From Elusimicrobium minutum (GTDB taxonomy: Bacteria > Elusimicrobiota > Elusimicrobia > Elusimicrobiales > UBA9959): a stretch of 64,000 nucleotides of DNA. Position numbers and translations under genes: made by a program. This document shows positions 49,309 to 63,836 of the stretch, piece by piece (position 1 is the first letter of the stretch; every line of letters starts with the position of its first letter). Where the stretch lies: the NCBI GenBank assembly GCA_020723765.1, contig DYIF01000001.1, positions 71,127 to 135,126 on the forward strand, written 5' to 3'. Under the pieces are notes generated by a model that was not told where the DNA came from, made no database searches, and saw nothing but the letters and a program-made list of their open reading frames with translations.

Positions 49309-50843
49309 AAGCCGATAAATCTCCTAAACAAAATCTCAAATTTTTGTTTGTCGTAATTATCTATGCCTTTAAAAAGCCGCATAAAACCGACATAGACAAT
49401 TATGAACGCAAAAAGAGTTACAATTAAATATAAAATCTGGAGACTAAAATGTTTAACGAGAGATAATTTTAAAATATAAATCGAAAACAAAGAAAAGAAT
49501 ATTCCGTAAAAAACGCTTAAAAAACCGTTCCAAAAATCCGAATTGGAGACTTTTATAACTTTGTTTATCGCAAAAACATAATATACCGCCGCCACTATCA
49601 GCGAAATGCTCGTACCGTAGGCGACGCCTTTAAAACCGAATTTGATTATAAAAAAATAACTCAAGGACATATTTAATATTCCGTTAAGTATGGCTCCCTT
49701 CATCTGTATATCCGTTCTGTCTATCGATTGTCCGACCAGAGAACTAACAGAACCCAAAAAAGTATTTATAAAATATCCTATTATAATAATTTTTAAAATA
49801 TAAGATATTTCCAAAAAATTCTTCCCTAACCATAAACTTACTATATCTTCGGAAAAAACGAAAAGATAACCGAAAATGAAACCGCTTATTATAATCATAT
49901 ATTTGGTGGCTTTTAAATAAAGGCGTTTCAAATTTTCCAACAAACCTATAGACTCCAATTCCGAAAAGCCGGGCATTAGGGCGCTTGAAAAAACGACTAT
50001 AATATTCCTTACATTAATCGCCAAACTGCTCGCTATATGGTAAAAAGTAACGTAATTGAGAGAAAGAAATTTCGTCAGTATTATTTTTTCAAAATGAGAA
50101 GCTATCAATGATGAAATTAAAGTTACGTTAAGTTTGCCGCCGTAAGATACGGCGTTTTTTAAAATATCCATATCGAATTTGAAATGTCGCACAGAAAAAA
50201 TCGGAACATGCTTGTACGAAAAATAAAAATTAACCGCGAAGTTTATAACGCCGGCCAATAGAGTATTTAATATTAATCCTTTCAATCCGAACCCCGATTC
50301 TATGAAGAAAACCATACCGGAAACTTCGGCTATGGATACGAAAAAAGCGATCTTATTGGAATAGTCCATGCGCTGGATAGATGAAAATATGGAATTAACC
50401 ACCCCGAATATTCTTAAAAAACCGCTGACAAAACAATAAAAAACCGATAAAGAGATAAACTGCGAAAAATCATTATTAGATATGTCCAAAAAAACCGCTA
50501 TCTTTCCCCTGATTAGAAGCAAAATTAACATTGAAATCAATAAAATTACCGAATAAAATATCATACAAGTAAAAATATAAGAATTGAATTTAGCTTTATC
50601 GTTCAAAGAATAGAATCTTGACAAATACCTTACAAAAGAAGTCGAAACCCCCAAATCCAAAAGATTCATATAATCTACAACTACTTTTATGACGATATAT
50701 ATCCCGTAATCATTCGGACCTATTTTTGAAAGCAAATAGAAAGGAACGAACAACATAACGCAAAAATACCAGATCTTTCCGAAAATATTCCATAAAGTAT
50801 TTTTAAAGACTTTATAATGAAACTCTTCCAAATCAAATCCCAT
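49305..50843 (-). CDS. Polysaccharide flippase (Wzx-type, MOP superfamily)
   Basis: The 512-residue protein has about 14 membrane segments and the polysaccharide-transporter outline, beginning NTLWNIFGKIWYFCVMLFV. Wzx proteins move undecaprenyl-linked repeat units across the inner membrane. GAGGA precedes the ATG, which lies 11 bases inside the O-antigen ligase gene. Confidence 0.88.
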   Translation of the reverse strand: MGFDLEEFHYKVFKNTLWNIFGKIWYFCVMLFVPFYLLSKIGPNDYGIYIVIKVVVDYMNLLDLGVSTSFVRYLSRFYSLNDKAKFNSYIFTCMIFYSVILLISMLILLLIRGKIAVFLDISNNDFSQFISLSVFYCFVSGFLRIFGVVNSIFSSIQRMDYSNKIAFFVSIAEVSGMVFFIESGFGLKGLILNTLLAGVINFAVNFYFSYKHVPIFSVRHFKFDMDILKNAVSYGGKLNVTLISSLIASHFEKIILTKFLSLNYVTFYHIASSLAINVRNIIVVFSSALMPGFSELESIGLLENLKRLYLKATKYMIIISGFIFGYLFVFSEDIVSLWLGKNFLEISYILKIIIIGYFINTFLGSVSSLVGQSIDRTDIQMKGAILNGILNMSLSYFFIIKFGFKGVAYGTSISLIVAAVYYVFAINKVIKVSNSDFWNGFLSVFYGIFFSLFSIYILKLSLVKHFSLQILYLIVTLFAFIIVYVGFMRLFKGIDNYDKQKFEILFRRFIGL

Positions 50844-52203
50844 TTTTTTCTATCCTCAAATAACTTACGCTAACAAGAGCCACGCAAAACCAAAAGGGCT
50901 CCATTATTCTGACTATTATGAAAGTATTGACTCCTAAACCCTGAACTAAAAAAGCGAATATCGAACAAAAAACTCCAAAAGCCAAGCTTTTTTCATATAA
51001 ATTATCGCTTTTATTATATACTTTAAAAGACATATTTAGAACGGAATATATAAGCCAAACAAATAACACAAATCCGATAATACCGGTTTCTCCCAAAATA
51101 AGAGAATATTGATTATCGCCAAGTCCAACGCCTGTAACCCCGGCCCCTAAAAACGGATGGTTAGGCAATACGTTTAATACGACTCTTTCTATCGATTGAT
51201 ACCTTTGATAAGCGGAGTCTTCAAGAGTAATTTTACCAAAAGGTGTAACGACAATATTTTTAGCTTCCAAACCTTTATAGGTGTATTCTATTCTCGCTCT
51301 TACTTTTTCTCCAAGCCCGGGCAAAAAAAACGTTATTAAAAACACAAAGAAAGCGCCCATTAAAAAGAAAAATTTTCTTTTCTTAACAAAAATTACAAAT
51401 ACCAAAAAAAGCGTTATAAAACCCATATAACTTGCTCTTGAAAAGGTCAAAAGAAAAGAAGGATACAAAAATATAAAACTCAAAAGAACTATTAAAAACT
51501 TGCCACCCTTTATTTCAGATAACAAGGCAAGCATTACTCCCATAGCCAAAAGATAATAACCCCCAAGCGATGCGGGTTCGGATTCTTTCGGATTTCCTAA
51601 AGGCGCTTCAAAAGGAGCCGTGGTTCTAACAAGGTCTCCGGTAGCGTTAGCGTAGTAATAATAAGAATAAGCGATAACTATCAACAAAACATAAAACATA
51701 TATTTAATATATCTATAATAATCCTTCTCTTCTTTTAACATATTAACTATCATAAAATACATCATATAATACTCGATATATTTTAATACGTAAAAAAAAG
51801 CCTTTTCCCAATTAAGCCTTCCACCAATTATTCCCAATAATGTCGAAATCACATAAACCGAAGTATAAAGAAGAAGAGGAAGTTGTATCGGCGTTTTTAT
51901 TAAGAAAGGCTCTCTTTTAATCAACGCGGTTCTTATAAGCCAAACGAGGAATATGAGAATGAGCAAAACATCGTCGTATCTTACAACTACCGCTTTTCCT
52001 GATACCGCTCCAACTCCTATTTCGGGAGACAAAAGCATTGAAAAAATCAAAAAAACAACCGATTTTAAAGGATAATTAAAAGTTATGAAAAGTATAAGAA
52101 AACCCAAAAAAATCATTAAAAGTTTGTAAGGAGAATAATTTAAAGCGTATTTGACTATTAAAATAGAAATGAAAACGAATATCAAACCGAGGGTTAACTG
52201 CAT
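50833..52203 (-). CDS. O-antigen ligase/polymerase family protein (WaaL/Wzy)
   Basis: The 456-residue protein has about 12 membrane segments and a large periplasmic loop (about 295-350) with HPFLGAGVTGVGLGDNQY, the family block that holds the functional His. Wzy polymerises repeat units; WaaL attaches chains to lipid A core. With one such gene in the cluster, sequence alone does not decide between them. It starts exactly after the Wzc stop region, with GGAAG as ribosome site. Confidence 0.85.
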   Translation of the reverse strand: MQLTLGLIFVFISILIVKYALNYSPYKLLMIFLGFLILFITFNYPLKSVVFLIFSMLLSPEIGVGAVSGKAVVVRYDDVLLILIFLVWLIRTALIKREPFLIKTPIQLPLLLYTSVYVISTLLGIIGGRLNWEKAFFYVLKYIEYYMMYFMIVNMLKEEKDYYRYIKYMFYVLLIVIAYSYYYYANATGDLVRTTAPFEAPLGNPKESEPASLGGYYLLAMGVMLALLSEIKGGKFLIVLLSFIFLYPSFLLTFSRASYMGFITLFLVFVIFVKKRKFFFLMGAFFVFLITFFLPGLGEKVRARIEYTYKGLEAKNIVVTPFGKITLEDSAYQRYQSIERVVLNVLPNHPFLGAGVTGVGLGDNQYSLILGETGIIGFVLFVWLIYSVLNMSFKVYNKSDNLYEKSLAFGVFCSIFAFLVQGLGVNTFIIVRIMEPFWFCVALVSVSYLRIEKNGI

Positions 52204-54075
52204 TTATCTTCCGGAATAATCAGAATAGTCATAATAATAACTATATCTCGGTCCCAATTCGCTCGTTTTAACCCCGTTTAAAACTATACCTATCATTTTG
52301 GCCCCGACTCCGGTAATCTGTTCTTTCGCTCTTTTTAACGCCCCTCTGGCTATCTTACCGGATTTATAAACCATAACAACGCCGTCAAGCCTTTTACCTA
52401 TGACAATACTGTCTACAAACAACAAAACCGGAGGTCCGTCGAATATTATAAAATCAAAGTTAGACTTTAACTCGTCCATTATCTCGGTCCAGTTCGCATT
52501 GTCTAACAAATCCACCACATTATAAGGAGTGGTGCCGCTCGTAATCACGGTTAAATTTTCTATGCCGGGGAATTTAATCATGGCGTCCGGCGAAAAACCG
52601 CCTCCTATAAAATCGTTCATTCCTCTTTCCACCTCTGCTAAGTTCGCTTTACCGGCTATAAAATCGGTAAGACCGGGTTGTTTTGGAATTGAGAATATCT
52701 GATGTAATACCGGCCTTCTTAAATCTGCTTCAACAAATAATGTTTTAAGCCCGGAGCCCGCCGAAGCCAAAGCTAAGTTTAAAGCGGTTAAAGTTTTTCC
52801 CTCGGCGGCTCCGCTTGAGCTTATCATTATGGCAAGCGGACCTTTGTTTTCAATGTTGGATATTATATTCGCTCTTAAAGTATGATAGGATTCTATTATG
52901 TTGGTGGTTATTCTTCTATTAAATATCAAAACGGTTTTAAATCCGTCTATTGAAAATCTTTTCCTTTTAAATATGTTTGTAAACCAATTATCCGAAATCT
53001 TAGCCGAAGAAATATGAGGTATTATCCCGAGAACCGGAGCGTTAAGAAAAGTTTCTATCTCTTCTATTGTGCTTATCGAAACGTCAAGGTTTTCAAGTAT
53101 GAAAACAAAAACTATACCCAAGAATATTCCGGTTAAAATGCCTATTGCGAGATTCAATCTTTTGTTGGGAAGAACCGGGGTGGTATTTAAAACAGGCGGA
53201 TTTATAACGGTTACGAAAGAAACTATAGAAGAAAGCCCTAATTTGGCTTCTTCGTACTGTTTATTTATGGTCGAATACAAATCTTCCTGAAGCTTTATTT
53301 CTCTATTAATTCTAAGTAGTTCCAACTCCTGAGAAGGCATCTGTTTTAATCTGGATTGCAAAGTCTCTATTTTTTTATCAAGGCTTATCACATCCGGATG
53401 ATTGGAAGTATATTTTTCGAGCAATTCTTTTCTTTTTATTTCCAAATCGGCTATCTGGTCGCTTATAATCGTAGCCATGCCGGTATTAGGGTTTTTTTGA
53501 ATATAATCTTTTTTCTGTCTTTCCAAGCTTCTCAATTTATCTTCTATTTCCACTTTTCTTTGCATTATATCGTTAAAAGTTTTTTTGGCTTGAGAGCTTT
53601 TTTGCTCGAGGTCGTACTCCTTATAAGAATCTATAACCGCGCTTACTATATCGTAGGCTTTATAAGGATTGGATGCGTATGCTGTAATCGAAATCAAATT
53701 GGTATCTGGAACTCTATCCGCTTTATAAGAGGATTGTATTTCGGAAGCCACTCTATTTAAATTCAATTCGTCTAAAGAACTGGCAAGATTAAGTTTAACC
53801 GCAACTTTTTTTGCTATTTCAAGAGAAGATATTACTCTTATCTCTGTATTAACCGCCCCCCAGGGGTCTATATCCATTATATCGGAACCGGGGAGTTGAG
53901 AGTATATCTTTGGAGGCTGTATTTTAATTACCGCGGAAGTCGAATAGAGAAGCGGAGAAAGCTTTGTATAAAAAATGGCGGCGATTATCGTTATAAAAAA
54001 AATAGACAAAAAAGACCATTTCCTTTTATTAAGTATCCTCCAGTAATCGTATAGGGTCAAGCCTTCGTTATTCAT
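52204..54075 (-). CDS. wzc: Polysaccharide co-polymerase with tyrosine autokinase domain (Wzc-type)
   Basis: The 623-residue protein has a Wzz domain between two membrane helices (about 20-40 and 305-325) with coiled coil between them, then a BY-kinase: Walker A SSGAAEGKT (420-428), Walker A' VEADLRR (448-454), Walker B IIFDGPP (543-549). The C-terminal tail is a tyrosine cluster, with Tyr at 611, 613, 614, 615, 617 and 620, the autophosphorylation site of the family. It controls chain length and export with Wza. No Wzb-type phosphatase lies nearby. Confidence 0.93.
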   Translation of the reverse strand: MNNEGLTLYDYWRILNKRKWSFLSIFFITIIAAIFYTKLSPLLYSTSAVIKIQPPKIYSQLPGSDIMDIDPWGAVNTEIRVISSLEIAKKVAVKLNLASSLDELNLNRVASEIQSSYKADRVPDTNLISITAYASNPYKAYDIVSAVIDSYKEYDLEQKSSQAKKTFNDIMQRKVEIEDKLRSLERQKKDYIQKNPNTGMATIISDQIADLEIKRKELLEKYTSNHPDVISLDKKIETLQSRLKQMPSQELELLRINREIKLQEDLYSTINKQYEEAKLGLSSIVSFVTVINPPVLNTTPVLPNKRLNLAIGILTGIFLGIVFVFILENLDVSISTIEEIETFLNAPVLGIIPHISSAKISDNWFTNIFKRKRFSIDGFKTVLIFNRRITTNIIESYHTLRANIISNIENKGPLAIMISSSGAAEGKTLTALNLALASAGSGLKTLFVEADLRRPVLHQIFSIPKQPGLTDFIAGKANLAEVERGMNDFIGGGFSPDAMIKFPGIENLTVITSGTTPYNVVDLLDNANWTEIMDELKSNFDFIIFDGPPVLLFVDSIVIGKRLDGVVMVYKSGKIARGALKRAKEQITGVGAKMIGIVLNGVKTSELGPRYSYYYDYSDYSGR

Positions 54076-54078
54076 ATC

Positions 54079-54765
54079 TTATTTGCTCAAAATAATGGAA
54101 ACGCTTATGGCGAAAGTGGCAAGCATTGTCCATGGAATAATATTATCCGAAACCCATTTTGTTTTTGCGGTGAATTTTTGTTTCGGAACGTATACTATGT
54201 CCCCCGGCATAAGTTCTATATTTTTTTCAAGGCTGCCTTGAAAAAAACTATCCATGGAAATGCTAAATATCTCCTCTTTTAAAGCTCCGTCTTTGGTTTT
54301 AGTTTTTCTATAAACCTTTATATTTTTGCTATCCGCATAATCCCCGGGGCCTCCCGCTTCCGCTATTAAATCCAACAGCGTCATGCCTTCCGAGTAATCG
54401 AAATAACCGGTTCTTAAAACCTGTCCTATTACCGCGACTCTGTAAGAAGAAAACTTTTTTATCGAAACCGTTATTTTGGGGTTTGAAACGTATCTTGAAA
54501 ACCTTTCGGTCAAAATCTTTTCGAGATTTGAAGGCGTCATAGATGTAACCTTGATATTTCCTATAAGAGGAAGTTCTATGGTCCCGTCGGGGGAAACCGA
54601 AACCTCTCTGGAAAATTCCTCTGCGGGAGATACCGCTATGCTAATTACATCTCCGCTGGTTATGTAATAGTTGGATTCATAACCTTTAGGAAGGTCTATC
54701 GCAAAAGCGAAAGAATCCAGAAAGAAAACAAAAGCAAAAAACAAAGACGATATTTTTTTAATCAT
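54079..54765 (-). CDS. wza: Polysaccharide export protein (Wza-type, SLBB)
   Basis: The 228-residue protein has a signal peptide (1-22), the poly-export domain (ITSGDVISIAVSPAEEFSREV onwards), an SLBB domain (RVAVIGQVLRTGYF, LIAEAGGPGDYAD) and a C-terminal hydrophobic helix (WTMLATFAISVSIILS). At 228 residues it is shorter than E. coli Wza, and the helix may span the inner or outer membrane. There is no ribosome site; TAAAAT ends six bases before the ATG, so a separate leaderless promoter may serve the export and glycan genes. Confidence 0.9.
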   Translation of the reverse strand: MIKKISSLFFAFVFFLDSFAFAIDLPKGYESNYYITSGDVISIAVSPAEEFSREVSVSPDGTIELPLIGNIKVTSMTPSNLEKILTERFSRYVSNPKITVSIKKFSSYRVAVIGQVLRTGYFDYSEGMTLLDLIAEAGGPGDYADSKNIKVYRKTKTKDGALKEEIFSISMDSFFQGSLEKNIELMPGDIVYVPKQKFTAKTKWVSDNIIPWTMLATFAISVSIILSK

Positions 54766-54798: not shown

Positions 54799-55332
54799 TC
54801 ATTTTTTAAAAGAACTTAAAACCGTCTTTAAAACGCTTTTAATCTCCCTGATTTCGTTTTCCAAGTCTTTTGTACGCCCGGAAGACAAACCCGTCTCTTT
54901 TTGAGAAACATATTCCATCTTTTTTTCAAGCACGGAAATCCTATTTATTATATCCTCGGGGATTTTGGATTTTTGATAAGCCGTCAAAACATATCTAAAA
55001 AATGTTATAAAAACCAATACCGAAAACAGCATAAAAGAAACCGAGCCTATTACCGTTATATACTCATATGATGATATCAGTCCTATGACTATTAATATTA
55101 TGGAAGCCAAAAGGGAGAAAAGAAGCGTTTCTTTGTTTTCGCTCCATACGACGTTAAACTTGGAAGAGCCGACATTCTCGGTTTTCATATTAAAATCGAA
55201 CTTAGCGGGAGAAGGCTTAATGTAAGAAAGATTTTCCTCGGTTTTATTTTCGCTTTCTCTCAAATCGAAATCTTCGCTTAAAGATTCCTTTTTCAAATCG
55301 TTTAGAAGGTTTTCAAGCTTATTATCTTTCAT
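54799..55332 (-). CDS. Small two-helix membrane protein with coiled coil
   Basis: I do not recognise this 177-residue protein. Residues 1-65 are polar and acidic, 69-88 and 91-112 are two closely spaced membrane helices (a hairpin with both ends probably cytoplasmic), and 125-177 form a short coiled coil. GAGGA precedes the ATG, which overlaps the coiled-coil gene by 11 bases. The place between two coiled-coil genes and wza suggests it ties the cytoplasmic coiled-coil proteins to the membrane. Confidence 0.7.
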   Translation of the reverse strand: MKDNKLENLLNDLKKESLSEDFDLRESENKTEENLSYIKPSPAKFDFNMKTENVGSSKFNVVWSENKETLLFSLLASIILIVIGLISSYEYITVIGSVSFMLFSVLVFITFFRYVLTAYQKSKIPEDIINRISVLEKKMEYVSQKETGLSSGRTKDLENEIREIKSVLKTVLSSFKK

Positions 55333-56071
55333 CTTTATCCTCTGTTTTTTTATCCAGCTCCTCGCTGATACCCAATTTTTTTATCGTTTCATCTATCTTT
55401 TTTTCTCTTTCCTCCAATATTTTTTCTTTCATATCAAGTTCTTCTTTCAACTTTTCAAAAGCTTTTATAAGCTCCCTTTTTTTTCTCGAAAAATCCTCTT
55501 CCAACCTTTTTTCTTTTATTTTTATCTCCATCAATTTCTTATTGTAATCAGACTCCAATTTTATTCTGAAGTTATCGATTTCTTTGTTTTTTTCTTCCCA
55601 TCTTTTAAACATCTCCTCTTCTTTCATCCTAAAAGAATCGTAAAGCTCCTGAGTTTTCTTGGAGTATTCCGCGGTAAGCTTCGTTCTTTCGTTTCCTATC
55701 TCCATCAACTTTAGCTCCAGCTGTTTGTTTTGCTCTTCCATATATTTTTTAAGCTCCAAATTCTCTTTTAAAATTTTTTTCTTTTCTTCGTTTAACTTTT
55801 CTAAGGTTAAATTTAATTCGGCTATTTGAGAATTTAACTCTTCAATTTTTAATTCGTATTTTTTAACGTTATTTTTATATTTCTCCTCCGCTTCTCTTTC
55901 CCTTCTTTTTATTATTTCGTCGGTCGAATAAGTTTCCAAAGAAAACTCTTCCATTATCGCGGTCATCTCTACCGCGGCCGGATTTTTTTCGCTCCATAGT
56001 TTTTCTCCGAATTTAACCAGCCTTTCGTAAAGCTCTTTTGGAACGCATTTGATTTCTTTCATAATATCCAT
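55322..56071 (-). CDS. Coiled-coil protein
   Basis: The 249-residue protein has an N-terminal globular part (1-55, PKELYERLVKFGEKLWSEKN), then an unbroken Glu/Lys-rich coiled coil to the end. There is no signal peptide or membrane segment. A second ATG at codon 4 is possible. It lies eight bases after the giant coiled-coil gene and overlaps the small membrane-protein gene. The function is unknown; a partner of the giant coiled coil is likely. Confidence 0.72.
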   Translation of the reverse strand: MDIMKEIKCVPKELYERLVKFGEKLWSEKNPAAVEMTAIMEEFSLETYSTDEIIKRREREAEEKYKNNVKKYELKIEELNSQIAELNLTLEKLNEEKKKILKENLELKKYMEEQNKQLELKLMEIGNERTKLTAEYSKKTQELYDSFRMKEEEMFKRWEEKNKEIDNFRIKLESDYNKKLMEIKIKEKRLEEDFSRKKRELIKAFEKLKEELDMKEKILEEREKKIDETIKKLGISEELDKKTEDKDER

Positions 56072-56079
56072 AATATTAC

Positions 56080-59000
56080 CTACTTTTTATACTGATTTAT
56101 CGCTTTTATCAGCTCAAGCCTTAATTTTTCTATTTCCGCTTCCTTTCTCGCGTATTCTTTTTCCAAATTTACTCTTTCCTCGTTTATTTTCCTTTCTTTT
56201 TCGCCAAGCTCTTTTCTTTTTTTGGAAAACTCTTCCTCATATAATTTTAACTTACTATTTATCTCTTTTTCCAATTCCGCTATGCTTTGCTTTTGAGCAG
56301 TTATTATTTCGTCTTTTTCTTTTAATGCTTTTTCAAAAGAAGAAACGACGGCGGAAATATCTTTTATTCTGGCTTCATACTCTTTCTTTAACTCTTCGGT
56401 TTTATCGAAAATCTTTTTTTCCGCCTCTTTTTTCTCTTTGAGAAAATATTCTTCCATTTCTTTCAATTTAGCGGAGTACCCTTCCCTTTCTCCGGCGATG
56501 GCTTTGGCGTACTCAAGGCTAATCTTTGCTAACTCATCTTCCATTTGAGCTATCCTGTCTTTCATTGCGGCTATCGCTGAATCTTTTTCGTTTAACTGCT
56601 TTTCGTACCTGTTTTTTTCTTTATCGAAGTTTTCCATTAATTTGCCGAAGTATTCTTCTCTTTCTTTTTCCATTTTGGCAATCTTTCCTTCGTATTCTTT
56701 TATTTTTGCTTGATAATCCTCGGTCGCTTTAGATATCTCTTCCGAAACCTTTTCGTTCAATTTATTTAAGTAATTGGACCTGATATCGTTTAATATCTTT
56801 TTATACTCTTCTTCTTTTTTATTCATCATATCGGACAATTCTCTGTTTTTATTCTCCATATCCGATATCTTTGAGCGAGTTAAAGCGAGAACGCTTTCAA
56901 ACTCTTTTTTCTCCGATTCCAAAATTTTAATCTTTTCTTCGTAGGATTTTTTCAATGTGTTTAACTCTATTTCTCCGATAGCTTTAGCGTTCTCTTCCGT
57001 TTCCTTAACAACTTTCTCGCAATAAGATTTCATCTCTTCCATGGATTTTTTTATTTTTGAAACCTCTTCTTCTTTTTCCTTTATTTTAGCCTGCATATCC
57101 AGCTTTAACGATTCCGTCTCTCTAACATGTTCTTCTTTCGCTTTTTTTAATTCTTCCAAGATTCTTGCCTTATTTTCTTCGATTAATTTGGCTATTTGAG
57201 ACGAAAGCTCTTCTCTTAAAACCTTTATCTCTTCCTCTTTTTTCTTCTCAAGATCCGCTCTTTTTTCTTCCTCCGCTTTAATTCGGCTTTCAAATTCTTT
57301 AACTTTTTTATCAATCATAGATTTATACTCGTTTTCCAGTTTGTTTTGCTTTTCGGAAAACTCCTTCTCTTTTTCTATCAATTTATTGCGCAAAGATTCG
57401 TTTTCTCCCAAATATCGAGCCCTAATGTTTTCAATTGTTGTTTTTAAAGCTTTTAATTCCTCTTCTTTTTTATCCGAAATTTCCGCTAAAGCTTTTTCAA
57501 ACTCTAAGTTTTTAGACTCGGCTTTTTCCATTATCTCTCTCATTTTCTTTTCTTTTTCTTCCATTTTAGAGACAAATTCTTCTTGCAACTTGTTTTTTTC
57601 CGATTCCGCTTTTTCCAAAAGCTCTTTAATCTTCAAAGACAATTTTTCTTCAATTTCTTTTATTTTTTTATCTTTCGCTTCCAATTGTTCGCGATAACCG
57701 CCGATCAAACCATCCTTTTCCATCTCGAATTTGCTTTCTAACTCGGAAATTTTTAAGAAATACTCTTTTTCTTTTTCGTTCAATTTCTCTTCCCAATGCT
57801 TTCTAATCTTTTCCGTTTCGCTCTCTTTTTCCTTTTCAAGCTCCGAAATCTTGGCCTCAAGAACCCTTATCTTATTTTCGTAACGTTTTCCCGTCTCTTC
57901 AACCGCTTTTTCTTTCTCGGCAATCTTTTCCAAAAGAGCGTCTTTTTCTTTTTTATTTAATTCTTTTATTGCGGCTATCTCTTTTTCAAGCCTTTCGAAA
58001 TATTCGGCCTCCGTTCTTCTTCTAAACTCTTCCAACTCCCCGGCATATCTTTGGCTAATCTCTTGCGCTTTTAAATTAAGCTCTTCAATCTTCGATCGAT
58101 ACTCGTTTTCTTTTTCTTTAAATTCGCCATTCATTTTTAATATTTTCTCTTCATATTCCTTTATAACGGATTCAAGTTCCGTTTGTTTTTTATTCCTTTC
58201 TTCCAAAATCTTTCTCTTTAGCTCGGCCTTTTCTTCTTCGATTTTTTTCAACTCTTCGCTAAACCTTATTTCATACTCCGCTTTTACTTCTTCAAGCCTT
58301 TTTATTCTTTCGGAAAACTCTTTTTCCTTTAAAGCCAAAAGCTCGGTTATCTTTTGCTCTCCCAAAGACTTTATCGTTTTAATTTCTTCTTTCAAAGCCT
58401 CTATCTCTTTTTCTTTACTCGCCGCATATTCGTTATATTTATTTTTTATAGAATCGATCTTTTCTCTATATTCGTTTTCCAATCGGCTTATCTCTTCCCG
58501 GTGTTTTTCTTCGATAGATTGGAACTTCTGTTTTTCCGCCTCCGAAATGGAATTTATTTTATTTTCGTAACCAATCGCGATATCTTTTATTCTGGACTCG
58601 TAAAGCTCTATCAGGCTACTCTTTTCTTTTTGATATTCCTCCGCTTTTTGCGAAAGCTTATTTTGCAATTCTAAAATCCTCACCTCCAATCTTTCGCCGG
58701 CCTGGGAAATCGCTTTTTCATAATTTGTTTTTATTTTTTCCAACTCCAAATTGTGATTTCCTTTAAGCGTTTCCATCTCGGCCTTAAGCTTTCTTATCTC
58801 GGATTCGTATATCGCGAGTTTGGCCGATTTTTCATTTTCCAAATCTCTAAGTTTTAAATCGTAGTTTTTCTCTTTTTCTTTGAAATCCAAGACCATCGCC
58901 TCCATTTTCCCTTCGTATTCTTTTCTTATATTATCTGCCAGAATGATCTTTTCGTTTTCTTTTTCTTTAAAAAGTTCTTTTTGGGCGTTTTTATAGAACT

Positions 59001-62000
59001 CTTCGGTTTCTTTGATTTTTTCTTTCAAAGATTCGTTTTCGTTTTTAACTATGGCGATATTTTTGTCAAATTCTTCCTTAACGGCCTTAACTTTTAATCC
59101 CACTTCGCTGTGTATCTTCGCCAGATATTCTCTTTCTAACTCTTCTTTCTCTTCATTATGTTTTCTCTCCATTTCTATTAATTTAATATTCAGTTCGGAA
59201 TTTTTCAAATTTAATTCTTCTATTTTGGCATACAATGCCGAATTTTCCGATTTAAGATTTTCTTTTTCCTTTTCTATTACCGAAAACTTTGCGTCGAAAG
59301 AAGACTTCAATTCCTCGTACTTTCTCTGATAATCTTCCATCAACTCTATTTTAAGATTGGTGTATTTTTCTTCTATTTTAGCCTGTTCTTCGGCTATTTT
59401 ATTTCTATACTCTTCTTCCTTTTCGGCGGATAATTTTATTTCAAAATCTTTTAATTTTTTCTCCCAGGATAAATTAATTTCGCCGATCTCCAAATTAAAT
59501 CTGGCTATCTGTTCATCTTTATATTTTAACTGCTCGGTTAACTGACTTATTTTATTTAAAGATTCTTTATGTTTATTGGATATATTTTCGGTTTCGATTT
59601 TAACAAGTTCGTCAAGTTTTTTATTAAACTCATTTTCAAGCTTAACTCTAAACTCCGCCAGTTTCCTGTTAGATTCGAGCTCTATTTCGCTTATTTTATC
59701 CGAAAGTTCGTTGTTTTGGGAAATAAGAGCTATTACGGTCTGCTGAGATTTTTGATATATCTCCCTTAACTCTTCCACAAGATTCTCATAATCTTTCTTT
59801 TCTTGAGCCCACACTCCTTTTTCTCTTTCTAAGATTTTAGAATATTCTTCATCCAGCTCTTTTTCCTTTAAAAGATAATCGTTTCTAATAATTTTAATCT
59901 TTTCTTTATATTCTTCTTCAATTTCTTTCTTAATAGACAACACTTTCCCCTCATATTCCCTTTTTGTCGCCTCAAGTTCCTTTTGACGCATCTCCAATTC
60001 TAAATCAAACTTTTTCTTCATCTCTTTTTTTTCTTCTTCGAGTCTGGCTCTTTCTTCGCTTAATTTATTCTGATATGAAATTTTTATCTCTTCTATTTTT
60101 TTGATATGGCTTTCAAGTTCTTTCTCCTTTACGGCCACCACCTCCAACAACTTCTCATTGGACTCGGACTTTATTTTCCTTATCTCTTCGTTTAGTCTTT
60201 CTATATCGGAGTCTCTTTTTAAGATTTCGTCTTTATATCTTAAGACTATTTCTTCCTCTCTTCTGTTATATTCTTCTTTGAGTTCTTTTAACGCCTGATC
60301 GTATTCGTTTTCTTTTTTAATAAGCGCTTCTTCAAAATCTTTTTTAATCGCATCGACCTTTTCTTTTTCTTCCAGGGAAATGTGGTTTATTCTATCTTCG
60401 AAAGCCTTTTCTATTTCCCTTATCTTAGAGTTATAAAAATCTATGAGATTGGATTTTTCTCTTTCGTATTCTTCGTTTTTGCCGGAAAGCTCGTTTTTCA
60501 AAGATTCTATCTTTAAAAGATAGCTCTCTCTCATCTTATCGAACATTGCAGATCTTTCCGCAAATTCTTTTTCTTTTTCTTCTATCAATCCGCTTATTCT
60601 GCCGGCATAGTCTTTCTCCATGCCATTTATTTTGTCAGTAAGCTCGGATATTTTATTTCTATATTCGTTTATTTTACTCTCATAATCGGCCGATATCTTT
60701 TTTTCTCTGACGGCCGCCGCTTCTTCATATCTCTTTTTTTCTTCTTCAAGTTTTAGCTTCAGTTCGTTTACTTTGTTCAAATACTCGTCTCTGGATCTGG
60801 AAAGCTCTTCCAGATGCTTTTTAAAACCTTCCTCCTTTTCTCTTATCGCTAAAGATATTTTATTTTCAAACTCTTCGTGTTTTTTACTAAGCTCGGCTAA
60901 AAGCTCGTTTATTTTATTTTCTTTTTTACCGAGCTCTTTGGAAAAAATTTCCGAAATATTTCTTTTTTCTTCCTCAAAATCGGCGTAAAGCTCTTGTTTT
61001 TGAGAGTCGTAATACAACTCAAGCTCTCTAACCTGATTTTTGTATCTACTCTCCATATCTTTTACGGTATTCTCTATCTCAAGATTTTTCTCTTCTATGA
61101 TCTTAAGATATCTTTTTTCCATCTCCTTCATTTTATTGTCGTAATCGGCTTCTATGTTCGAAATTTTATCTCTCAAAGCTCTGATTTCTTCCACATTTTT
61201 AAACCTTATGGACTCAAGTCTGTTTATCTCGTCCTTCAACTCTTTTTCTCTGGTTTCTATGAAAGACAAAAGTTTCGATTCGAATTCCTTTTCTTTTTCC
61301 AGTATTTTATCGTTTAAATTATTTATAATTTGAGAATATTCGTTTATTTTATTTTCAAGTTTTTCCTTTTCGATTTTGCCTTCGCTTTTAATTTTTTCGA
61401 CTTTGCTTTCAAAATCGCTTTTCGCTTCTTCAATCTCTTTATCCTTAGCTCTCTTAAAATCGGCTTTAATCTCAAAAACTTTGCTTTCGAAACTTTTTTC
61501 CATTAAAGAAATTTTATTCTGAAGGTTCGATATCTCGGTTTTATAATTTTCTTTTAAGTTATTCAAATTATTTATCTCGGAAATAAGTTCTTTTTCTTTA
61601 TCGGTTACCATCTGGATTATTTTCTGGTCGTATCCGTTTTGGATCTCGATCAGTTTGGACTCGACCGATTTAAGATTGGATTCTTTTTCGGCTATTTTAT
61701 TTTCGTATTCTTTCCTCAAAGATTCCATTCTTTTTTCGAAATCCGCCTGATACCGAGCAAATTTTGCCTCATATTCGGCGGCGACTTTGTTTTTTTCTTC
61801 CAGTATTTTGCTTTCAAGTTCTTTTATCTTATTAATTAATTCGTCGTTTACAGCCTTAACTTTTTCTCTTTCTTCTTCAAATTTTTTTAGATTATCAGAA
61901 TATTCTTGCTCTCTTAAAGATATTTGCTTTAATAATTCTTGTCTGAAATTTTCCTTCAACGAGCTTATTTCGTTTTCAAGCTTTGAAATGGTGGTTTGAC

Positions 62001-62835
62001 TTTCTTTATATTTTTCCTCCATTTCTTTCGCTCTTAAAACTACTCGCTCTCTTTCCGCCTCAAAAGCTTTATGAATTTCGGAAATCTCTCTTTTCCTCTC
62101 CTCCTCTATATTTTCAAGTTTTTTGTTAAAATTATGAGTTAAAAATTCATATTCTTTTCTGCCTCTCTCCTCAAGCTCTTTTTTCTTCTCTTCATACTCT
62201 CTTCTAATCTTTTCTTTTTCTTCTTCAAGGGCCCTTTCCTTTCCGGCGAGGTTTTCCTCAAGATTTTTAACTCTGGACAAAAGTTCGGTCTCTCTAAGTC
62301 TAAACGAATCTTCTATTTCGTTTATTCTATTTTTAAAAACTTCCTCGGTTTCTTTTTTAAGCTGGTCGTATTTTTTTTGAGCTTCCGAAAGTTTTTCGGA
62401 ATATAAGCTTTCCGTGTCCAGCAACCTTTTTTGCCACAAACCGACCAGATTTCTCTGCTTTATATCGAGCTCCTCAAATCTTTTCTGATACTCCTCCTCA
62501 AGTTCCTTTCTTAAAATTTCTATCCTCGCTTCTTTTTTTATCAAATCGTCTATGCTTATCTTCCCCTCTCCCAAAAGAGAAATGGTTGCTTCCAATTTTT
62601 TATAGAAATCCTCTTTTTCTTCCACGGTCTTAAGCCTTGAGTTTAAATTAAATTCTATTTGAGAAAGTCTTTCGGAAAGCTTTTTCTTCTCATCGTCTAA
62701 AATTTCTACGTTTTTTTTCAAATCCAACTTTTCTTTTTCCAGAGAAGATATTTTCTCAAGCGCCCATCTCAAACTCATTCTTGCGGTATCTATATTGGAT
62801 ATATCTCCGACTATCTTTTCTATTTCGTTTTCCAT
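56080..62835 (-). CDS. Giant coiled-coil protein of 2251 residues with internal repeats
   Basis: Residues 1-35 are a short non-coil head (DTARMSLRWALEKISSLE); nearly all the rest is Glu/Lys-rich coiled coil. There is no Walker motif, no signal peptide and no membrane helix, so it is neither SMC/Rad50 nor a surface protein. A motif of about 40 residues, KI..L...KEKEF...I..LE..K..Y..KI, recurs at least six times. A block near residue 776 realigns near 1388, suggesting a duplication with an offset of about 612 residues. Fully helical it would be roughly 0.3 micrometre long. GGAG precedes the ATG. It leads the 27-kb minus-strand run and is divergent from a CheY-type receiver. Confidence 0.85.
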   Translation of the reverse strand: MENEIEKIVGDISNIDTARMSLRWALEKISSLEKEKLDLKKNVEILDDEKKKLSERLSQIEFNLNSRLKTVEEKEDFYKKLEATISLLGEGKISIDDLIKKEARIEILRKELEEEYQKRFEELDIKQRNLVGLWQKRLLDTESLYSEKLSEAQKKYDQLKKETEEVFKNRINEIEDSFRLRETELLSRVKNLEENLAGKERALEEEKEKIRREYEEKKKELEERGRKEYEFLTHNFNKKLENIEEERKREISEIHKAFEAERERVVLRAKEMEEKYKESQTTISKLENEISSLKENFRQELLKQISLREQEYSDNLKKFEEEREKVKAVNDELINKIKELESKILEEKNKVAAEYEAKFARYQADFEKRMESLRKEYENKIAEKESNLKSVESKLIEIQNGYDQKIIQMVTDKEKELISEINNLNNLKENYKTEISNLQNKISLMEKSFESKVFEIKADFKRAKDKEIEEAKSDFESKVEKIKSEGKIEKEKLENKINEYSQIINNLNDKILEKEKEFESKLLSFIETREKELKDEINRLESIRFKNVEEIRALRDKISNIEADYDNKMKEMEKRYLKIIEEKNLEIENTVKDMESRYKNQVRELELYYDSQKQELYADFEEEKRNISEIFSKELGKKENKINELLAELSKKHEEFENKISLAIREKEEGFKKHLEELSRSRDEYLNKVNELKLKLEEEKKRYEEAAAVREKKISADYESKINEYRNKISELTDKINGMEKDYAGRISGLIEEKEKEFAERSAMFDKMRESYLLKIESLKNELSGKNEEYEREKSNLIDFYNSKIREIEKAFEDRINHISLEEKEKVDAIKKDFEEALIKKENEYDQALKELKEEYNRREEEIVLRYKDEILKRDSDIERLNEEIRKIKSESNEKLLEVVAVKEKELESHIKKIEEIKISYQNKLSEERARLEEEKKEMKKKFDLELEMRQKELEATKREYEGKVLSIKKEIEEEYKEKIKIIRNDYLLKEKELDEEYSKILEREKGVWAQEKKDYENLVEELREIYQKSQQTVIALISQNNELSDKISEIELESNRKLAEFRVKLENEFNKKLDELVKIETENISNKHKESLNKISQLTEQLKYKDEQIARFNLEIGEINLSWEKKLKDFEIKLSAEKEEEYRNKIAEEQAKIEEKYTNLKIELMEDYQRKYEELKSSFDAKFSVIEKEKENLKSENSALYAKIEELNLKNSELNIKLIEMERKHNEEKEELEREYLAKIHSEVGLKVKAVKEEFDKNIAIVKNENESLKEKIKETEEFYKNAQKELFKEKENEKIILADNIRKEYEGKMEAMVLDFKEKEKNYDLKLRDLENEKSAKLAIYESEIRKLKAEMETLKGNHNLELEKIKTNYEKAISQAGERLEVRILELQNKLSQKAEEYQKEKSSLIELYESRIKDIAIGYENKINSISEAEKQKFQSIEEKHREEISRLENEYREKIDSIKNKYNEYAASKEKEIEALKEEIKTIKSLGEQKITELLALKEKEFSERIKRLEEVKAEYEIRFSEELKKIEEEKAELKRKILEERNKKQTELESVIKEYEEKILKMNGEFKEKENEYRSKIEELNLKAQEISQRYAGELEEFRRRTEAEYFERLEKEIAAIKELNKKEKDALLEKIAEKEKAVEETGKRYENKIRVLEAKISELEKEKESETEKIRKHWEEKLNEKEKEYFLKISELESKFEMEKDGLIGGYREQLEAKDKKIKEIEEKLSLKIKELLEKAESEKNKLQEEFVSKMEEKEKKMREIMEKAESKNLEFEKALAEISDKKEEELKALKTTIENIRARYLGENESLRNKLIEKEKEFSEKQNKLENEYKSMIDKKVKEFESRIKAEEEKRADLEKKKEEEIKVLREELSSQIAKLIEENKARILEELKKAKEEHVRETESLKLDMQAKIKEKEEEVSKIKKSMEEMKSYCEKVVKETEENAKAIGEIELNTLKKSYEEKIKILESEKKEFESVLALTRSKISDMENKNRELSDMMNKKEEEYKKILNDIRSNYLNKLNEKVSEEISKATEDYQAKIKEYEGKIAKMEKEREEYFGKLMENFDKEKNRYEKQLNEKDSAIAAMKDRIAQMEDELAKISLEYAKAIAGEREGYSAKLKEMEEYFLKEKKEAEKKIFDKTEELKKEYEARIKDISAVVSSFEKALKEKDEIITAQKQSIAELEKEINSKLKLYEEEFSKKRKELGEKERKINEERVNLEKEYARKEAEIEKLRLELIKAINQYKK

Positions 62836-62853
62836 AAAATTCTCCGTTAAGAT

Positions 62854-62882
62854 ATTTTACATAAAAGGGTATGAAATGTTTA
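62854..62882 (-). promoter_or_regulatory. Promoter of the giant coiled-coil operon
   Basis: Minus strand: TAAACA (62882-62877), 17 bases, TAAAAT (62859-62854), then 18 bases to the ATG with GGAG. The 147-base divergent gap also holds ATGAAA...TTTCAT (62871-62910) and TGATAAATATCA (62920-62931), possible operator sites. Confidence 0.45.
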
Positions 62883-62982
62883 TTAAATGAATGTTAAATA
62901 ATTGTTTCATATTAAAATATTGATAAATATCATTTTAAAAAACCTATTTTTTTTAAATAATTTTTTAAAAGGGGGCTAATCT

Positions 62983-63387
62983 ATGGATAAAATACTCATA
63001 GTGGAAGATGAGGTTATTATAGCGAACATATTAAAAAAATTCTTTGAAGATAAAGGGTATCTGGCTACCTATACCGAAACCGCCGATGCCGCTCTAAAAT
63101 GGATAGACAACTTCAGACCCGACCTCCTGATAGTCGATGTCGGCCTTCCGGACATAAACGGAATAGAACTTTGCAAGGAAGTAAGGAAGAACATTAGAAC
63201 AAAAAAAATACCCATAATAATAATGACCGGAATAAACGAAATCGACACCAAAATAAAAGGTTCGGTCGAAGCTTGCGCCAATCTTTATTTGCAAAAACCT
63301 GTGGAGCCTCAAAAAATTCTCGAAGCGGCCGGCAAGTTAATAGACAACTACAAAACGGAAAAATACAGATTTAATCTCAATTACTAA
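62983..63387 (+). CDS. Single-domain response regulator (CheY-like receiver)
   Basis: The 134-residue receiver has every active-site residue: E8 and D9, phospho-acceptor D52 (LIVDVGLPD), T82 and K105 (LQKP). No output domain is fused, so it must signal by binding a partner. GGGGG lies before the ATG. It is divergent from the giant coiled-coil gene, which makes that system its likely target; coiled coils with receiver input act in polarity systems such as AglZ and FrzS of Myxococcus. The orphan kinase at 7193-9040 could phosphorylate it. Confidence 0.93.
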   Translation: MDKILIVEDEVIIANILKKFFEDKGYLATYTETADAALKWIDNFRPDLLIVDVGLPDINGIELCKEVRKNIRTKKIPIIIMTGINEIDTKIKGSVEACANLYLQKPVEPQKILEAAGKLIDNYKTEKYRFNLNY

Positions 63388-63425: not shown

Positions 63426-63836
63426 ATGAAGAGGTTTTTTTTTGTTTTTTTATTTATTTTGTTTGCATATTTTGGATATAAAAATAGATACGATATTTAC
63501 GCCTTCTCCGCCAATTTAACCGGCAAAATCGAAATTTCCGAGGATTTATCAAAACACATAAAGCCCAATTCGATGTTATATATAACTTTAAAAAACGACA
63601 AAAATATAATATTCGCGGTAAAAGAAATAATAAATCCGATCTTTCCTTTGGATTTTAAAATTACAAGAAAAAACGTTTTATATCCGGATATATCCTCTTT
63701 TAAAATAAAATTGGAAGCGGTAATAAACACTCACGGCGAAATAGGAAAGATAAAACCGGGAGACATATACTCTTCTTCAATCGAAGCCAACATTATATCG
63801 AGAAATTTAGATATAAAATTAGATAAAATCAAATGA
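63426..63836 (+). CDS. Small membrane-anchored or secreted protein, unknown
   Basis: I do not recognise this 136-residue protein. Residues 3-18 are a very hydrophobic Phe-rich signal or anchor, and the rest is polar and beta-prone (MLYITLKNDKNIIFAVKEI, then a region with FKITRKNVLYPD). The size and plan recall the periplasmic part of cytochrome c-type biogenesis or SPOR-like proteins, but no motif supports either. It lies 38 bases after the receiver gene and has its own promoter. Confidence 0.6.
   Translation: MKRFFFVFLFILFAYFGYKNRYDIYAFSANLTGKIEISEDLSKHIKPNSMLYITLKNDKNIIFAVKEIINPIFPLDFKITRKNVLYPDISSFKIKLEAVINTHGEIGKIKPGDIYSSSIEANIISRNLDIKLDKIK

Follow-up and report, generated by a model that had tools for sequence, protein, structure and literature searches.

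Several bacteria are known to tie cytoplasmic scaffolds or coiled coils to their surface machines. The longitudinal cortical belt made of BcsHD in Gluconacetobacter/Komagataeibacter is an intracellular scaffold that aligns cellulose secretion complexes (PMC11470070). AglZ of Myxococcus xanthus is a filament-forming coiled coil marking the sites of a surface machine (PMC2907295), and HmpF of filamentous cyanobacteria is a lineage-restricted coiled coil that controls a polar one (PMC12288463). In Streptomyces, cytoplasmic polarity proteins (the polarisome of DivIVA and Scy, with CslA) sit at the tips where beta-glucan is made (PMC13432765). Polysaccharide assembly in E. coli O9a involves WbdD, whose coiled coil can be tuned in length (PMC5082667). 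The locus described here lies in a window of 64,000 nucleotides (G000:C6:71127-135126) within a 2.1-Mb Elusimicrobiales metagenome-assembled genome (MAG), named G000. As a preliminary description of this DNA had claimed, genes for a giant coil of 2251 amino acids (aa), coilA, for a second coil, coilB, and for a two-helix membrane protein, TM, directly precede wza and wzc on the same strand. The evidence below makes it very probable that coilA, coilB and TM are functional parts of this Wza/Wzc export system.

To our knowledge, no described Wza/Wzc system includes a giant rod, a second coil and a membrane hairpin; in the open literature no paper was found that describes such a rod module, and none relevant on coiled coils and polysaccharide in Elusimicrobia. 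The exporter itself resembles other Wza/Wzc (eps_fam) systems, its Wza, Wzz-kinase and ligase-like genes being ordinary members by Pfam and NCBIfam. Wzc unites Wzz, GNVR and AAA_31 in one protein and matches the eps_fam tyrosine autokinase model at E = 1.5e-46 (158.5 bits, cut-off 108).

By analogy, the proposed system would work most like the BcsHD belt, the rod being envisaged as an intracellular scaffold for polysaccharide secretion complexes. It is nevertheless not a member of that group: BcsH is proline-rich and serves synthase-dependent cellulose export, whereas coilA is a proline-free helical rod next to wza/wzc, with neither BcsD nor a bcsA synthase among its neighbours. AglZ and FrzS offer a parallel in the coil (AglZ) that marks a surface machine, but they carry a fused receiver or pseudo-receiver, and Response_reg has no match in coilA. 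The genome gives 0 matches to CheW, and a search for MglA through the Arf family yields at best 1e-9, in an 801-aa frame, with no match of MglA size. A polarity system of the Myxococcus type is rejected on these three grounds, and the parallel drawn in the preliminary description is retained as an analogy only. HmpF resembles coilA in its restriction to one lineage, but acts on a pilus motor and often stands beside chemotaxis-like systems rather than beside wza/wzc. The Streptomyces polarisome consists of different proteins and involves no Wza/Wzc, the linkage seen here being purely genetic. Finally, WbdD joins its coil to enzyme domains (methyltransferase/kinase) and sets chain length, whereas neither coilA nor coilB has an enzyme domain.

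Linkage of the coil genes to Wza/Wzc

Transcription on the minus strand runs coilA, coilB, TM, wza, wzc and a ligase-like gene. The spacing is so tight (8 nt between coilA and coilB, an 11-nt overlap of coilB and TM, 33 nt from TM to wza, 3 nt from wza to wzc and 0 nt from wzc to the ligase-like gene) that the set looks like a single operon. Relatives were collected by a scan of 84,980 species that requires a short exact motif, and 70 loci were returned (L numbers denote loci, G numbers genomes), all labelled Elusimicrobia or plain 'bacterium' MAG. Given this requirement, by which distant relatives outside the phylum could be missed, the rod family has been found only in Elusimicrobiota. An earlier scan with the TM protein alone produced no matches. 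These relatives belong to MAGs of the Elusimicrobiales; judged by the coilA N-terminus, SKW254 (L046; 79%) is the nearest.

In the window's own family, f1, the order coilA-coilB-TM-wza-wzc is kept in 28 of the 35 loci with enough downstream sequence, L068 being counted after its completion through genome G009. The preliminary description had proposed looking for this order in relatives and would have been contradicted had the coil genes lain away from polysaccharide genes in all of them; the linkage in fact recurs in f1 and in other families. Looser coilA-wza/wzc linkage, at different sites and with the genes differently arranged, is present in at least two more families and constitutes independent support. 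The order is wza-wzc-coilA-membrane protein in f14 (L097-099, L101, L122, L123, L152), and in f10 coilA faces TM-wza-wzc (L100, L103, L128). In f15, TM-wza-wzc-ligase are contiguous (L151) and coilA lies on a separate contig. In L108 (L108:3108-10884), a second coilB and wzc come after a short-coil coilA-coilB-membrane protein set, and the row also includes a degenerate HD-type protein.

The linkage is also reflected in the phylogeny of Wzc. The coil-linked Wzc proteins of f1, f10, f15 and L108 form one clade (support 100/100) apart from other Wzc, and this clade also holds one f2 copy (L139) with no adjoining coil; the Wzc of f14 is a second, separate lineage. A further wza/wzc pair, coil-free in the four f1 genomes sampled (L120, L121, L144, L145), groups with the unlinked Wzc. 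Judged from this tree, coilA and coilB are specific to one Wzc clade.

Two genomes without a linked wza show matching decay of the coil and TM parts. In G012 (completeness about 100%), Poly_export finds no match and coilA measures 729 aa; a 177-aa protein there has the head of coilB fused to the TM hairpin, a natural fusion that places coilB at the membrane. In G191, coilA is cut to 329 aa, the TM fragment contains a stop and wza is absent. CoilA is likewise shortened in L081, to 277 aa. In L117 and L118, a two-helix coil of 357-361 aa follows coilA.

The rod and its membrane partners

CoilA contains 0 proline and one cysteine in 2251 residues. Its hydrophobic pattern repeats every 3.63 residues, with a power of 12.1 against a shuffled maximum of 1.7, and at the heptad value of 3.5 the power is near background; a control coil, E. 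coli MukB, peaks at 3.46-3.53. The preliminary description called coilA a coiled coil; it is a long, proline-free and strongly periodic protein, but a classical heptad coil it is not. Because this period lies near the natural helical turn, coilA is expected to form an almost straight bundle with little supercoiling, about 330 nm long if it is one continuous helix. Both ends are conserved, as an N-terminal domain of ∼140 residues and a C-terminal tail, and a coilA-like tail also closes distant coilB proteins. AlphaFold predicts helices 2-89 and 95-199 in residues 1-200 with a pLDDT of 89.9, the pTM of 0.37 leaving their mutual arrangement unsure. CoilA, coilB and TM have no credible Pfam or NCBIfam match, and the coilA N-terminal profile, the only one run against the PDB, matched no solved structure. 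Weak matches to ATG17_like, SMC_prok_B and OppC were dismissed as due to chance or to coil/TM composition. The coilA N-terminus also has weak matches (E 1e-7 to 1e-10) in open reading frames (ORFs) of ∼1000 aa in many f1 genomes, for example at G009:C4:6146, G012:C15:257265 and G024:C52:20577; they suggest a second coil family elsewhere in these genomes.

The length of coilA ranges from 729 to 2957 aa, a fourfold spread, among family members with a recognised C-terminal tail, the middle being the variable part. Two segments of the window's protein are an old internal duplication, offset by 600-611 residues, with 41-42% identity; their 60-mer BLOSUM scores are 156/142, and controls do not exceed 87. 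A BLAST self-comparison found no internal repeat, and it was the ungapped scoring with controls that later revealed the duplication. Insertions and deletions (indels) between orthologues have lengths in phase with 3.63 (among them 11, 18, 33, 47, 54, 58, 62, 138 and 232). Over 28 distinct lengths the cosine averages 0.478, which 1/10,000 jittered sets match (p = 1e-4); ten events from the most similar pairs give p = 0.014. These values are weakened by the fact that pairwise alignments, from which the phases are drawn, favour in-phase gaps. Several of the closest pairs need one gap only, whose size is set by the length difference. By these alignments, coilA indels keep the phase of the 3.63-residue hydrophobic stripe while the length changes.

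The other two proteins would connect the rod to the membrane. AlphaFold predicts a helical head (residues 12-46) and a single helix of 183 residues (50-232) for coilB. TM comprises a short amphipathic motif (..[DE]L..LL..LK.E), a disordered linker, a hairpin of two adjacent hydrophobic segments (residues 69-87 and 94-112) and a C-terminal coil, a layout that suggests a membrane anchor. Partners with a TM-like start are encoded after coilA in f3 and f15, where they measure about 404 aa and have two and one predicted helices, respectively, as well as in g11; in f10 they precede wza. The f14 partner (L122:14053-14757, L123:12973-13689) has one helix and, outside this membrane helix, a borderline CBM_48 match (22.1 and 22.4 bits, cut-off 22.4) that is possibly a glycan-binding end. 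In L104, L105 and L108, the partner combines a single helix with a region that looks like a propeller, its repeat pattern being judged by eye and the NHL match being sub-threshold and confined to L105.

Candidate signalling partners and neighbouring genes

The stand-alone receiver that the preliminary description had placed divergent from the coil and wza/wzc genes is indeed present, but the control of a coil scaffold that had been attributed to it is not borne out. L046, the closest relative, and nearly all other loci have no receiver between coilA and its divergent neighbour. Small receivers lie within 4 kb of 4-5 of about 47 f1 loci, which is about the chance rate given ∼40 receivers in 2.1 Mb, and those near other f1 loci share just 34-40% identity with the window's. 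From these context counts and from L046, the receiver is rejected as the partner of the rod in f1; it is probably a local insertion and not part of the system. The short-coil families f4/f10 often have a receiver close by. Seven loci (L104, L105, L106, L107, L109, L110, L126) combine a short coilA (411-684 aa) and coilB with a receiver within a few kb, and some have a histidine kinase too; none of the seven shows a wza in the stretch examined.

A candidate signalling partner is a protein starting with MKFSDL that carries an HD_5 domain (4.2e-14). It is encoded divergently from coilA in f15 (L133) and a subclade of f1 (L069, L078), from TM-wza in f10 (G110, G134) and from the coil-type wza in the f2 genome G144 (L139). 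In f1 it mostly lies away from the module, the copy of the window's genome being at G000:C21:68591-69850, and a receiver adjoins it in L156, L157, L159, L161 and L163. Among 38 f1 genomes, 24 have both an intact TM and the HD-GYP-like protein, three the latter only (G003, G016, G032), 11 neither and none TM only (Fisher p = 3.0e-7, with kinship uncorrected). HD-GYP phosphodiesterases are characterised by the motifs HDxGK and HHExxDGxGYP. Here these are altered, to YDLGM in the G000 copy and HDxGM in most relatives, with xHE for HHE, so that the protein is probably a degenerate HD-GYP with impaired catalysis; motifs that look damaged in this way would make a sensor likelier than an enzyme. GGDEF proteins are present in G000. 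As a signalling partner, this HD-GYP-like protein fits better than the window's receiver. At L156:7524-9851 (G000:C21), its operon also encodes a receiver and a protein weakly similar to DnaJ, and ∼6 kb away lies a GGDEF gene.

Features of the locus, with positions counted from the first letter of the window
Feature	Position	Strand	Basis
coilA, helical rod, 2251 aa	56080-62835	-	ORF list; orthologues
coilA N-terminal domain, residues 1-140, D-T-A-R-M-[TS]-L-R-W-A-L-E at 16-27	62416-62835	-	class-wide signature; AlphaFold
coilA internal duplication, copy 1, residues about 766-967	59935-60540	-	ungapped BLOSUM scoring
coilA internal duplication, copy 2, residues about 1377-1567	58135-58707	-	ungapped BLOSUM scoring
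coilA kept C-terminal tail, ..E.Y..K.AE.EKLR.EL..AI..YK	56083-56202	-	orthologue comparison
coilB, 249 aa, small helical head and one helix	55322-56071	-	ORF list; AlphaFold
TM protein, 177 aa, two-helix membrane hairpin	54799-55332	-	hydrophobic segments
Wza-type outer-membrane polysaccharide export protein	54079-54765	-	Poly_export E=2.9e-21, SLBB 2e-12
Wzc, Wzz/GNVR co-polymerase fused to BY-type tyrosine kinase, Tyr-rich tail	52204-54075	-	Pfam, NCBIfam
O-antigen-ligase/Wzy_C family membrane protein, adjoins wzc	50833-52203	-	domain match, context
Stand-alone receiver	62983-63387	+	Response_reg E=3.3e-25
Anchored Ig_CycH-like protein, about 136-140 aa, divergent from coilA	63426-63836	+	weak domain match, context

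The region 3′ of the ligase-like gene is an ordinary surface-polysaccharide cluster, rich in glycosyltransferases (about ten) and containing a flippase-type gene, methyltransferases, WbqC and a DegT aminotransferase. On the other side, the preliminary description had overlooked the conserved divergent neighbour of coilA, the Ig_CycH-like protein, which recurs at this place across most f1 loci; its domain match reaches 27.6 bits in the L089 copy and 17.9 bits in the window copy.

Proposed function and alternative explanations

In the mechanism favoured here, coilA, with coilB, would assemble into long, nearly straight cytoplasmic rods. CoilB and the TM hairpin, the latter by its predicted topology, would fix the rod to the inner membrane, beside Wzc. 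The rods may then gather, hold or line up Wzc-Wza complexes at a site in the cell, as linkage and clade specificity suggest, and polysaccharide would so leave the cell in an organised way, by analogy with the BcsHD belt. The degenerate HD-GYP protein and its own receiver, encoded elsewhere in G000, could tune the system, a role to which the co-occurrence points. Taken whole, this reading of a membrane-tethered cytoplasmic rod scaffold dedicated to one Wza/Wzc exporter stands at about even chances. A bolder version can be put forward only tentatively, and is doubtful: a signal-controlled cytoskeletal filament, so far restricted to Elusimicrobiota, built into the Wza/Wzc machine and setting the exit site of the polymer, as an almost unsupercoiled bundle of ∼100-440 nm evolving through in-phase insertions and duplications. 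The preliminary idea of a scaffold that places surface-polysaccharide secretion thus keeps its conserved coil set with wza/wzc and loses its receiver input, placement itself being inferred.

Several points weigh against the rod scaffold. The f1 module adjoins glmU-prs-rplY-pth at a site that is itself inherited as a block, so that synteny within f1 partly reflects common descent and is not independent evidence. No wza occurs within the stretches examined of the short-coil loci L104-107, L109 and L110. In g11 (L058, L070, L116) and L089, a coilA of 1079-1965 aa survives with no wza adjoining it; the rod may therefore have another job, and can work or linger without the exporter. The fourfold length spread is not what a precise geometric role predicts, the alignment bias affects the indel phases, and no feature of the sequences indicates polymerisation, placement or Wzc contact.

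Some of these points suit a filament with a general role in the envelope or in cell shape, only co-expressed with polysaccharide genes, which would account for coilA outlasting the linked wza in several genomes, for the short-coil loci without a nearby wza and for the block inheritance of the f1 site. Two observations make it improbable: in f10 and f14 the linkage recurs with Wzc of different lineages, the site and the gene order differing too, and decay is shared in G012 and G191. A less distant alternative, though still an unlikely one, is that the coils and TM form an adaptor regulating the Wzc kinase cycle, which would open or close the exporter on a signal and place nothing. The position of TM directly before wza-wzc, its co-occurrence with the degenerate HD-GYP and the tie of both coils to one Wzc clade would all follow, but such an adaptor has no need for a rod that spans 730-2957 residues and holds its stripe in phase despite indels.

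Two further explanations draw on the described systems. The preliminary reading, in which CheY controls a polarity scaffold of the Myxococcus kind for slime or gliding, could invoke a divergent receiver that is real and the type IV pilus-type ATPases of the genome; with the receiver unconserved and at chance frequency in f1, and no match to CheW or to an MglA-sized GTPase in the genome, it is highly improbable. It is scarcely credible that the coil acts, in the manner of WbdD, as a molecular ruler that sets the length of polysaccharide chains. A coiled coil does set O-antigen length in E. coli O9a (PMC5082667) and the length of coilA is species-specific, but rulers are expected to conserve length, coilA has no methyltransferase or kinase domain, and the co-polymerase here is Wzc, in the membrane/periplasm.

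If the reading of a dedicated rod scaffold is true, a whole bacterial class would have given one polysaccharide exporter its own internal skeleton, and few systems are known to have one. The module provides a concrete parts list (coilA, coilB, TM, Wza, Wzc and the HD-GYP partner) together with natural loss lineages. The rod itself would be a long helix of a rare kind, free to change in length but held to its stripe phase, and a clean case for learning what selects the geometry of a coil as against its length.

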